A stretch of 64,000 nt of DNA, from the NCBI GenBank assembly GCA_016903695.1, contig JADQBB010000023.1:1-64000 (forward strand), read 5' to 3'. The position numbers and the translations under genes were made by a program. Positions 3,175-20,386 of the stretch are shown here, piece by piece. The notes beneath the pieces were generated by a model, which had not been told where the DNA came from, searched no databases, and worked only from the letters and a program-made list of their open reading frames with translations. Every line of letters starts with the position of its first letter. The stretch's first letter is position 1. This DNA is from Chlorogloea purpurea SAG 13.99. Lineage in GTDB: Bacteria > Cyanobacteriota > Cyanobacteriia > Cyanobacteriales > Microcystaceae.

Positions 3175-3289
3175 AAGATAAAAGTTACTTTTAACCATGC
3201 CGAAGTGTTTCGCCGTTGGTAGGAATCGGGTAGGAAATGTTATTGAGAATGGCTATAATGGTGATGTAGTGGGAAGTAAAGAGATTTTT

Positions 3290-3339
3290 GCACTTCGTTC
3301 GGGACGAAGGGGCCGCAGGTTCAAATCCTGTCATCCCGA
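3290..3339 (+). pseudogene. 3' fragment of tRNA-Pro(CGG), integration-site remnant
   Basis: The segment contains the complete anticodon arm (CTTCG, loop TTCGGGA with anticodon CGG, CGAAG), the variable region, the T arm (GCAGG TTCAAAT CCTGT) and the 3' acceptor strand CATCCCG plus discriminator A. The acceptor 5' strand and D arm are absent: upstream sequence is unrelated AT-rich DNA, not the expected CGGGATG. A tRNA cut at this point, with the 3' half kept intact, is the signature left at the far end of an element that integrated into a tRNA gene. The intact tRNA-Pro would then lie left of this window. Confidence 0.8.
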
Positions 3340-17686: not shown

Positions 17687-17757
17687 GCGGGTGTAGTTTA
17701 GTGGTAAAACCCTAGCCTTCCAAGCTAATGATAGGAGTTCGATTCTCCTCACCCGCT
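17687..17757 (+). tRNA. trnG: tRNA-Gly(TCC), host of an integrative element
   Basis: Complete cloverleaf of 71 bases. The acceptor arms are GCGGGTG and CACCCGC with discriminator T. The anticodon loop CTTCCAA carries TCC for glycine, and the T arm is AGGAG TTCGATT CTCCT. CCA is not encoded. Its 3' end, from the T arm onward, is the left copy of a 35-bp direct repeat whose right copy lies at 19941-19975. Integration therefore kept this gene intact. Confidence 0.95.
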
Positions 17758-17768
17758 TTTGATTAATA
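17734..17768 (+). repeat. left attachment site, 35-bp direct repeat copy 1
   Basis: Starts ggagttcgattctcctcacc in the T arm of tRNA-Gly and runs through the acceptor end into gattaata. It is identical to 19941-19975. The bases on either side differ between the copies (A and T here, G and A there), which fixes the repeat limits. Confidence 0.9.
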
Positions 17769-17892
17769 TTGCAAACCTAGGGTTTTACTAACTTCTGTCT
17801 CACTTTTATCTCAATCACTATAACTAGCACAAAACAGGAAAACTGTCAACTGCAAGGGTTTCGAGCAATCGACAGTAACTTACTGGTTATTT

Positions 17893-17914
17893 TTGCCTTA
17901 AAAGTTTAAGGCAA
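17893..17914. repeat. perfect inverted repeat inside the element
   Basis: Arms TTGCCTTAAA and TTTAAGGCAA are separated by AG. The central TTAAAAGTTTAAG recurs at about 18456-18468, just downstream of the integrase stop. It may be a recombinase arm site or a site for a directionality factor. This is judged from symmetry and position only. Confidence 0.5.
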
Positions 17915-18012
17915 ACTTGCAGGACAAGAGAACAATCGTCATATCATCAATGCAAAGTACCAGAAACGGCAGTACAATTTTTCCTCTTCTATGTACTGCA
18001 GAGTTTAGTACA

Positions 18013-18255
18013 TTACCTCAATCCTTTTTCAAACATCACCGCATAACTCTTGATAAGGGTAGCCCTATCCAAGCCTTTGATTATACGTCTAGCGTTGATA
18101 TAATCGCTCATTTGACCCTTACTGGTATCCCCTAGGTAGTGTTTTAATGCCTTACCTGTAAACGTACCCATAACCGAACCATAAAACAAGATAGCCAGTG
18201 CAACTGGTTCTTTAAGTGTGTAGTTGGGGTATTCGGTCAAGTCTACATGCTCCAC
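18013..18255 (-). CDS. small element-encoded protein of unknown function
   Basis: An 80-residue frame starting at GTG. It has a hydrophobic middle (VALAILFYGSVMGTFTG) and a basic C-terminal half (NARRIIKGLDRATLIKS). The frame stays open about 14 codons upstream of the GTG to a stop, with no ATG there, so the exact start is uncertain. I do not recognise a family. It is the only sizeable frame besides the integrase in the mini element, and is divergent from the 32-residue gene. By position it could be an excisionase or a cargo protein. No DNA-binding motif is obvious. Confidence 0.45.
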   Translation of the reverse strand: MEHVDLTEYPNYTLKEPVALAILFYGSVMGTFTGKALKHYLGDTSKGQMSDYINARRIIKGLDRATLIKSYAVMFEKGLR

Positions 18256-18308
18256 AAAGAATTTACGAAGTATCTCCGTAAACTTCCTGTAAGCTTAAGG
18301 AAGTAACA

Positions 18309-18407
18309 GTGCAGGTTAGCCAGATAGAGTTTTACTCTAAGGGTCAAATGGATGATGACGGGAAAAAAATAACCCGTGATTGGGTGATTCACTTGAGGCC
18401 GAACTAA
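18309..18407 (+). CDS. 32-residue element-encoded small protein
   Basis: A short plus-strand frame with a GTG start five bases after AAGGAAG, an unusually good ribosome-binding site for this window. The encoded peptide is polar and ends KKITRDWVIHLRPN. It is followed directly by a hairpin terminator, so it has the look of a complete transcription unit. Its start faces the 80-residue gene across 53 bases that hold imperfect repeats of CTTCC. I do not recognise it. A regulatory peptide or small excision factor is possible. Confidence 0.45.
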   Translation: MQVSQIEFYSKGQMDDDGKKITRDWVIHLRPN

Positions 18408-18410
18408 AAA

Positions 18411-18452
18411 ATAAAAACCCCTAAGCCGTAGTTAAGCCTAGGGGATATTTTT
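18411..18452. terminator. bidirectional hairpin terminator between small gene and integrase
   Basis: Stem CCCCTA (18418-18423) pairs with TAGGGG (18439-18444). Two further GC pairs lie inside after one mismatch. An A-rich run precedes the stem and ATATTTTT follows it, so it can end transcription from both the plus-strand small gene and the minus-strand integrase. Confidence 0.65.
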
Positions 18453-18475
18453 AAGTTAAAAGTTTAAGTCAAAAA

Positions 18476-19864
18476 TTACCAATCATCTAACTGGTAAATC
18501 ATTTTGAGGATAGCCTTAACTTCTTTTTGGTTTATATCGAAACCATTGTTAGTTAGAGCCTGTTTAGCCATATCAAGGCTTAGTGGTTGCTTACTGTGGT
18601 TAGTAATCAGGTCAATGCTAGTCCGTATGTTGGAGCGTTTCTTATAGGTGTTCTCATTGACTGCAGTGGAGTGACCCAATAGCCTAGCTCTTATCTCTTG
18701 AGGGATACCGTACTTTTCTCCCAATTGGTTAGCTAGGTGACGGAATGCGTATTTATCCGTTATAGGCAATTTCCAACTAATCATCCTATTCGTAAACTGG
18801 TTATTAAACCCATTACATATTGAATCAGGTTTACTACCTTCCTTAGGCGTGTAGATAGGCAAGTTAGGCTCTTGTATCTTCAATCGCTCTATCAAGGCTC
18901 TATCCGTAACCATAGGTTTACAAACTCGTTTACCCGTTTTAATACGAATACCGAAGTATGTAAAGTCTCCTAAGTAAAGCAATAGCTCTTTATTATTGGG
19001 ACTGTTCAAAGCAGGGATAGTAACCCCATCTACAGTAAATGGACTAAACAAGTTTTGGGCGGCCGCTATTTCTGTAGGACGCAACCCGTAAAGGACGCAC
19101 ATAGAGGCTACCCAGACCCAGTTTACCCTAGACTCTATATCTCGTTTATTGGTCATACCATCTATGGCGGCTAATGTACGCTCATGCCATAGCAGGAAAG
19201 TATCAATGTCGATAGACTGTTTCTCCTTAAAGTCGGTTTGGTCATACTCTATACCATCTAGCTTCTCTAGTAGTGCTTCTTTGTTAGGACACAGACCGGC
19301 TACTCGTTTGAGTACGAAGTAGGCATTTTTAAAGCTTTTGCTTCCTTGTTTCCACGAGTAGAGGACTTTTTCTATATCCGTCCATTCCGGGTATTTATCC
19401 CAGTTAGTGAACCGATTAAAAATATCTGTATATGCTCTATTGAAGCTAGCTAAATCGCTAGCCTGTTCTCTAGAACGCTTAAGCTTAGTATTCTTATTCA
19501 CTCCTTTGAAATACTTGTCCTCAATCTGGGTGAATATCTCACGGTACGTCACTAGGTCATTCTTTACCTGATTTTTACCTAACACTTCTTTGTCGTACCA
19601 TTCCCAAAACTCAGAAGCTTTAGTAAATTTGCCCAGTGCCTCATGTATCTTGACTGCCTTGGCACTAGCTAGTATGATTCCCTCTTCAGTTAAACTTTCA
19701 CCAGTTGGTTTAGATGTGCGCTTATTGGTAGCAGGGTCAACGAATTGAAGTCTTAGGTATTTGCCGTACTCTACTTTAAGAGAAATACCTTTTGGTAGGG
19801 ATTTATTTTTAGACTGGACAAGCTCCAAAATCCTTTCGTAGCCTGTATATTTTCCTTCACTCAT
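18476..19864 (-). CDS. int: tyrosine recombinase (integrase) of the mini element
   Basis: A 462-residue phage-type integrase that would join the element to the tRNA-Gly 3' end. The N-terminal arm-binding region contains LKVEYGKYLRLQFVDP, followed by a helical core-binding segment. The catalytic domain has the first arginine in VLYGLRPTEIAAA, the second arginine box as YAFRHLANQL, and LLGHSTAVNENTYKKRS with histidine and the nucleophile tyrosine. The position equivalent to the usual histidine of HxxR appears altered (DKYAFRH), a variation seen in some integrase subfamilies. The gene begins 77 bases from the right attachment site. A further C-terminal extension of about 50 residues follows the tyrosine. 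Confidence 0.9.
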   Translation of the reverse strand: MSEGKYTGYERILELVQSKNKSLPKGISLKVEYGKYLRLQFVDPATNKRTSKPTGESLTEEGIILASAKAVKIHEALGKFTKASEFWEWYDKEVLGKNQVKNDLVTYREIFTQIEDKYFKGVNKNTKLKRSREQASDLASFNRAYTDIFNRFTNWDKYPEWTDIEKVLYSWKQGSKSFKNAYFVLKRVAGLCPNKEALLEKLDGIEYDQTDFKEKQSIDIDTFLLWHERTLAAIDGMTNKRDIESRVNWVWVASMCVLYGLRPTEIAAAQNLFSPFTVDGVTIPALNSPNNKELLLYLGDFTYFGIRIKTGKRVCKPMVTDRALIERLKIQEPNLPIYTPKEGSKPDSICNGFNNQFTNRMISWKLPITDKYAFRHLANQLGEKYGIPQEIRARLLGHSTAVNENTYKKRSNIRTSIDLITNHSKQPLSLDMAKQALTNNGFDINQKEVKAILKMIYQLDDW

Positions 19865-19940
19865 TTTTCACTCAGTTAGTTTTTATAGGACTAAGAGCAA
19901 AAAGTGATTTAACGAGAAATCAAGGTTCTGGGTTAAGTCG

Positions 19941-19975
19941 GGAGTTCGATTCTCCTCACCCGCTTTTGATTAATA
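19941..19975 (+). repeat. right attachment site, 35-bp direct repeat copy 2
   Basis: Exact copy of 17734-17768: the 3' end of tRNA-Gly from the T arm plus gattaata. Here it is not preceded by the rest of a tRNA, so it marks the displaced original 3' end at the far edge of the element. Confidence 0.9.
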
Positions 19976-20386
19976 AGCTCTTGGGGTCTATTTTATAAGG
20001 CTTTCGGGTATCAATTTAAATATTGTGATCCTCCTCGCTGTTACTGATCTGTTACTGCTTATTACGCTTTCTGGATCGTCGCCACCCCGTTAATTATCGT
20101 ACATCTACTATTCCTATGCAGTACGACCGCATTAGGCGGTAGAGAATCTTTATCTGGTCGATTACTTTCTGTTGCATCTGGTGGTTGCGCCAAGAGATGG
20201 TTATCAGCGCCAAGGACTACCTACACGCCGACGCTGTGGCTCACGACAGAACACACATTGATATATCCGTGGATGTCAGGGGGGTAAAGTCAAAGGCTCC
20301 GAGCTCGATGTCGGCTTGAATCGCTCTAAGCTTCCTTTCGTTAATACTTCTATTATCTACGCTCGTCATTCATTTTATTGACAAAA
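19976..20386. other. gene-poor flank right of the mini element
   Basis: These 410 bases hold no complete gene. Apart from the minus-strand integrase-like relic at 20241-20369, I see only short interrupted frames. The composition and broken frames suggest a graveyard of earlier insertions at this tRNA locus. Confidence 0.4.
20241..20369 (-). pseudogene. relic of a second integrase (N-terminal piece)
   Basis: A 42-residue minus-strand frame whose segment RKLRAIQADIELGAFDFT resembles the N-terminal arm-binding region of cyanobacterial tyrosine recombinases, which commonly contain an IxxDIxxGxFDxT pattern. It stops soon after the match and no catalytic domain follows, so if the similarity is real this is a decayed copy. 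It is not part of the intact integrase at 18476-19864. The assignment rests on a short motif recognised by eye. Confidence 0.35.

Follow-up and report, generated by a model that had tools for sequence, protein, structure and literature searches.

Organisation of the tRNA-Gly locus and its integrase

The window, meaning the whole 64,000-nucleotide stretch of DNA analysed here, carries a small integrative element in a tRNA-Gly(TCC) gene (Table 1). The element measures 2,242 bp with both terminal repeats, and its predicted circular form is 2,207 bp. An earlier note, made from the letters of the sequence, had described an intact tRNA gene on the left and a perfect 35-bp repeat of its 3' end bounding the segment. 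Both statements held, as the gene was called by ARAGORN and Rfam, and the two att cores are identical at 35/35 positions, in direct orientation, with a start-to-start distance of 2,207 bp. The tyrosine recombinase that the note placed 77 bp from the right end was also confirmed, the start codon of a minus-strand open reading frame lying at that distance. An intact tRNA gene on the left, a perfect duplicate of its 3' part on the right and an integrase between them give the segment the features of a tRNA-targeting element.

Table 1. Coordinates of the features of the tRNA-Gly element, given as positions in the window.
Feature	Position	Strand	Description
tRNA-Gly(TCC)	17687..17757	+	Target gene, intact; ARAGORN and Rfam
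attL core	17734..17768		T arm and acceptor 3' end of the tRNA gene, plus 11 nt beyond
Inverted partial copy of the target tRNA	17769..17788		Complement of 17704-17723, from D arm to anticodon; 17/20 nt
Putative P' arm-type integrase sites	17798..17814		Two TCTCA-type repeats 11 bp apart; read directly; similar pairs in the sister element and in relatives
80-codon stub	18013..18255	-	C-terminal end of a GH19-type endolysin gene; 94% identity to L017:16419-17060
Deletion junction	18288..18296		Left-part similarity to the sister runs to 18292, right-part similarity from 18291; 2-bp overlap AA
32-codon stub	18309..18407	+	C-terminal end of the sister's gene for a 603-residue Pro/Gly-rich protein; alignment and translation
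Tyrosine recombinase (integrase)	18476..19864	-	462 aa, intact
Putative P arm site	19895..19907		GAGCAAAAAGTGA; inverse of the sister's left arm motif; read directly
attR core	19941..19975		Displaced 3' end of the tRNA gene

In the present gene, the 5' part of the tRNA is derived from the host and the 3' part, from the T arm onwards, was supplied by the element. The family inserts into tRNA genes by way of a repeat beginning at the T stem, and the gene is rebuilt from the 3'-end copy that the element carries. Because the T stem's 5' strand is where the repeat begins (GGAG TTCGATT CTCC), the crossover is likely to fall in the 7-bp TTCGATT of the T loop (17738-17744), between GGAG and CTCC, where the element's own integrase would act on core and arm sites.

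The G+C content is 39.7% inside the element and 45.8% in the whole window. The earlier note had also read an absence of HIP1 sites as a mark of foreign origin. This argument fails, since at the density of the whole window, which has 12 exact GCGATCGC sites in its 64 kb, only 0.4 sites are expected in 2.24 kb, and their absence from the element is therefore uninformative. A joined empty tRNA-Gly site was found in none of 50 genomes of the family; these match only the tRNA-Gly gene and the immediate surroundings of the site, and the right flank is unshared. Directly to the right of attR (20130-20330), short frames resemble, by eye, a decayed insertion-sequence fragment. Elsewhere in the window, a weak tRNA match was recorded at 3260-3339 (Rfam 33.4 bits, E 0.0038), which ARAGORN does not call. 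The source genome is a draft of 33 contigs with 78.6% completeness.

Searches against Pfam, PHROG and NCBIfam models gave no match for the integrase. Its catalytic residues R262, K309, R375, H398 and Y407 are in place and conserved in 10 members of the integrase family. Structural alignment of the AlphaFold2 model (pLDDT 80.7) gave matches to lambda integrase (Z 12.3; 301 residues; rmsd 12.0), to the Tn1549 enzyme (Z 11.1; 265 residues; rmsd 5.5) and to Cre, so that both catalytic residues and fold place the protein among the tyrosine recombinases. The fold shared with the lambda and Tn1549 integrases covers residues 105-433 of the model. In contrast to these enzymes, with which identity is 9-16%, the protein carries a tyrosine (Y372) for the histidine of the HxxR motif and has its own arm-site motif.

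At E <= 0.001, the integrase has a match in 71 of the 293 genomes examined from the order, the faintest hits probably representing other recombinases. Additional genomes from two families also gave matches, as did 32 loci in the genome collection. None was found in viral contigs, phages or plasmids. The organisation corresponds to that of the tRNA islands and prophages catalogued by Islander (PMC4383910), which likewise have an intact tRNA at one end, a displaced 3' fragment at the other, a tyrosine integrase inside and a site of the T-arm type, their att sites lying in the T loop or at the T/acceptor junction. However, the size distribution of those islands peaks at 13.6 and 39.9 kb (PMC4383910), against 2.2 kb here. 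Further differences are an integrase outside the Pfam and NCBIfam models and, in much of the present family, an inverted copy of the target tRNA beside the core.

A 10-kb sister element and the internal deletion

A DNA search of the same genome revealed, on contig C31 (locus L017), a 10,010-bp sister element that occupies tRNA-Arg(TCT) and has an att repeat of 27 bp. The left part of the window element (17788-18292) matches C31:121783-122286 at 93%, and the right part (18291-19927) matches C31:112381-114016 at 81%. These two matches lie 7.8 kb apart on C31, in the same order as in the window, and about 7.8 kb is thus missing from the window element at 18291/18292 relative to the sister. The two integrases are 85% identical. 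In the orientation of the window, the sister contains a leftward operon that ends in an intact 214-aa GH19-type endolysin gene (PHROG endolysin families, best E 3.7e-29). This operon also encodes an AAA-type, replication-type ATPase, with weak Pfam and PHROG matches, as well as a protein resembling nucleases (Holliday junction resolvase in PHROG, E 3e-4). The rightward operon encodes small proteins, the last gene product being the 603-aa Pro/Gly-rich protein, and small membrane proteins are present in the element.

The frames of 80 and 32 residues reported in the earlier note do exist, on the minus and plus strands respectively. We rejected their reading as two independent small genes, both being the tails of longer genes in the sister. 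Since the sister holds intact forms of both genes together with the same ends, the window element is of the same kind with its middle removed. We conclude with considerable confidence that it is an internal-deletion derivative of a tRNA-targeting integrative element of about 10 kb, in which the integrase and the att sites were kept. The proposed event is a deletion, after insertion, between the last 80 codons of the endolysin gene and the last 32 codons of the gene for the 603-residue protein. Both halves of the window element diverge from the sister, by 6-19%, so the window copy did not arise by collapse of the sister during assembly. Identity to the sister is higher in the left 500 bp (about 94%) than in the integrase half (81%). 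The window element was therefore not derived from this particular copy, and a mosaic history is possible.

The earlier note had offered two origins, a decayed larger island or a satellite. The former stands, given the 10-kb sister with intact genes. As to the latter, the window element shows no sign of replication, packaging or transfer functions. We consider it very improbable that the element borrows replication or packaging from the sister or from another virus, despite the endolysin gene and the replication-type ATPase of the co-resident sister. Neither a packaging signal nor an interference gene nor a replication origin could be identified, and in the sister, too, no capsid gene was recognised. 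Phage satellites such as P4 and the PICIs have their own replication module together with capsid-remodelling or packaging genes, whereas the window copy consists of an integrase and two stubs.

The sister resembles small temperate phages and satellites of the P4 and PICI type in its integrase, AAA-type ATPase, endolysin and small membrane proteins. It differs from them in that no capsid, tail, packaging or terminase gene was recognised in it, although an endolysin was found; several of its genes match no family at all. Furthermore, the integrase and the 603-residue protein have no match in the phage collection, and the integrase and the ATPase have none in viral contigs. An excisionase gene was identified in neither the window element nor the sister, and PADLOC returned no match to defence genes.

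A protein of about 190 residues found in relatives was considered as a capsid candidate for the sister and rejected; its kinship with the sister's 107-residue protein was not supported by a profile built without the latter. This conserved protein of unknown fold (L224:1498-2076, L223:1501-2061, L222:1489-2070 and relatives) occurs in two integrase-bearing elements and in about ten other cyanobacterial loci, and it is a candidate structural protein. Folding of the protein, as it occurs in two relatives, gave a model (pLDDT 84) that matched nothing in BFVD or PDB.

Recurrence of integrase-only units

Both ends were mapped for 36 elements, comprising 34 surveyed elements, the window element and the sister; the relatives among them are not independent of one another, and an element was left unclassified when the examined piece contained no tRNA. 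Unit sizes range from 1.6 to 17.4 kb. Five of the 36 elements are smaller than 2.3 kb, namely the window element, L100 (1,644 bp), L020 (1,918 bp), L126 (2,178 bp) and L177 (1,673 bp). The integrase frame is uninterrupted in all of these except L177, where it is truncated. Reduction to an integrase and att sites is recurrent: at least three cyanobacterial lineages besides that of the window element have integrase-only units, 1.6-2.2 kb in size.

One of these minimal units occupies the same tRNA-Thr in two genomes (L020/L078, a pair also given as L077/L078). The integrase genes of the pair show about 5 differences, and their last ~1.2 kb are identical, whereas the blocks beyond the tRNA are only 92-97% identical. 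This disparity suggests that the unit moved or was exchanged recently.

These observations bear on whether the window element might be a streamlined and still spreading integrase-only element, a counterpart of the insertion sequence for tRNA sites, in which small size is favoured and the deletion form is mobile. The occurrence of such units in several lineages, three of them besides the window with an uninterrupted integrase, is in line with this reading, as are the intact integrase of the window element and the pair with nearly identical integrase genes between blocks that differ by 3-8%. Nevertheless, we regard it as possible but rather doubtful. The window copy is single in its own genome and was not found in relatives, its two stubs suggest a recent deletion, and L177 has a truncated integrase. 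Excision and re-insertion of the window element are probably still possible, through its own integrase or that of the sister. The element encodes nothing for replication, packaging or transfer, and any movement would be passive, by transformation, transduction or a helper.

A different arrangement was observed in Arthrospira sp. PCC 9108 (L102-L127, e.g. L103 9863-11548), where more than 20 copies of the same integrase family occur, mostly without a tRNA in the examined piece. These copies are flanked by inverted repeats of 60-90 bp of the core-and-arm type and might represent an invertible cassette or a transposon-like unit. In the tRNA-Gly(CCC) element L081, positions 365-2083 of the unit encode a 572-residue reverse-transcriptase/maturase-like protein, by eye of the group II intron type.

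Inverted copies of the target tRNA beside the att core

Immediately inside attL, the window element carries a short inverted copy of part of its own target (Table 1). Among 20,000 shuffles, 8 were as good, and the own tRNA ranked first of 85 tRNAs (score 28 vs 23 for the best other isoacceptor); none of 27 other tRNAs in the window genome exceeds 24. Taken alone this copy is weak, and it becomes credible beside the sister, in which 53 nt just inside attL form the reverse complement of the sister's own target tRNA at 83%. Inverted copies of their own targets are likewise carried by L077, L078 and L081 (Thr and Gly(CCC)).

In the survey, clear inverted copies were observed in 10 of the 34 mapped elements, under thresholds (score 33; repeat >=14 nt) chosen after the first cases were known. 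The copies are thus found in the sister and in about a third of the mapped relatives, between the att core and the arm sites, and correspond to several different tRNAs. Several loci placed among the controls scored highly as well, comprising the sister, L097 and L140 (integrase in the locus, end unmapped), together with L052, L061, L066 and L068. The last four are short loci taken for their ATPase, with the integrase outside the examined piece, and are probable elements.

Among copy-bearing left ends, which are not all independent, the own isoacceptor was the best of 85 tRNAs in 17 of 18 cases. For the 36 mapped elements, the summed own-target score was 994, against a permutation mean of 586 and a maximum of 752 (0/20,000 permutations), and the same-strand orientation control gave no signal (15.1 vs 14.8). 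No inverted copies were found at three E. coli tRNA prophages (leuX, argU and argW). A literature search, with most subscription papers outside its scope, returned no report of such inverted tRNA copies.

In several left ends, the copy or a spacer is followed by a pair of direct repeats of the type TTACTCA, 11 bp apart and roughly 60-80 nt from the tRNA end as judged by eye, which we take as putative arm-type integrase sites. Their distance from the tRNA end varies, for example to about 90 nt in L146 and L147, and the copy is accordingly not taken to substitute in every case for a spacer of set length. Agreement between the copy and the tRNA complement is highest (0.80-0.86) from the 5' strand of the T stem to the anticodon stem and falls to 0.67 in the T loop.

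Three origins or roles were weighed for the copy. We rank template switching first, then a function in integrase binding and last a role as RNA. In the first case, template switching (quasipalindrome correction) within a hairpin of the tRNA gene and the element end would generate the copy and repeatedly renew it, and the copy would have no function of its own. Template switching is documented as creating and repairing hairpins (PMC8794818; PMC7202029). The copies mostly start at the T arm and stop at variable points toward the 5' end of the tRNA, and their mismatches show no wobble-compatible bias on the would-be antisense strand (20 vs 37; 107 transversions). Moreover, L143, inserted in tRNA-Gly(CCC), has an inverted copy of tRNA-His in the first 120 nt after the tRNA (score 59 vs 16 for its own target), as if the target had changed, and a stale copy of this kind is in keeping with such an origin. 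On the other hand, template switching must act often enough to keep 17 of 18 copy-bearing left ends matched. The T loop of the copies is altered alike in several elements, which suggests selection there, and in the Met group a close relative lacks the segment that contains the copy. On balance, this origin is plausible enough to lead the three, though we hold it at less than even confidence.

Somewhat less probable is that the copy is a functional address for integrase binding, mimicking the left arm of the target and helping to choose or hold that tRNA. Such a role is suggested by the match of the copy to the element's own target, which none of the permutations reached, and by the position of the best agreement with the tRNA complement, which adjoins the crossover on the host side. 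It is also in keeping with L146 and L147, whose differences in the att surroundings fall in one block that would be contiguous in the circular attP (core-proximal right arm, core and copy). However, many elements with related integrases have no copy, the copies differ between the close relatives L020 and L097, and the stale tRNA-His copy in L143 speaks against a need for a matching one.

A role as RNA, either antisense to the tRNA or neutralising antisense transcripts from the element, is improbable: the copy could pair with the tRNA transcript upon read-through, and the left-end genes are transcribed toward the tRNA, but wobble-preserving changes are not enriched on the plus strand, the weak minus-strand excess (37 vs 20) is at most suggestive, and the antisense reading was rejected for want of a bias on the relevant strand.

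The elements L146 and L147 of genome G260 occupy tRNA-Thr and tRNA-Arg, respectively, and are near-identical at both ends just inside the att surroundings. The differences comprise the last ~45 bp before the right core, the core and the copy, which form one block in the circular form. The relationship between the two is nevertheless complicated: L146 (G260:C24:133200-153199) holds two integrase genes, of which the inner is 98.5% identical in DNA to that of L147 and the outer 81%. The att surroundings of the window element and its sister follow the same pattern. On a tree in which the window is counted as copy-bearing, 7 changes of copy label are required, at least 5 of them forced by supported branches. 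The close pairs suggest that core and copy are exchanged as one attP block of about 150 bp when the target changes. A more extended proposal, which we advance only tentatively and as rather unlikely in full, is that the family retargets through this single address block, in which the core lies together with an inverted copy of the new target tRNA; the integrase would change little, and the copy would take part in target choice.

How tRNA-targeting integrases reach new tRNA genes is an old open question. In this family, close pairs within one genome occupy different tRNAs, namely Gly/Arg in the window genome (integrases 85% identical) and Thr/Arg in G260 (genes up to 98.5% identical in DNA, with the best-matching copies). 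The att surroundings of such pairs differ mainly in one short block with an inverted copy of the current target, which makes retargeting directly testable. The window element itself represents a clear case of reduction to an integrase and att sites, with a full-length relative in the same genome.
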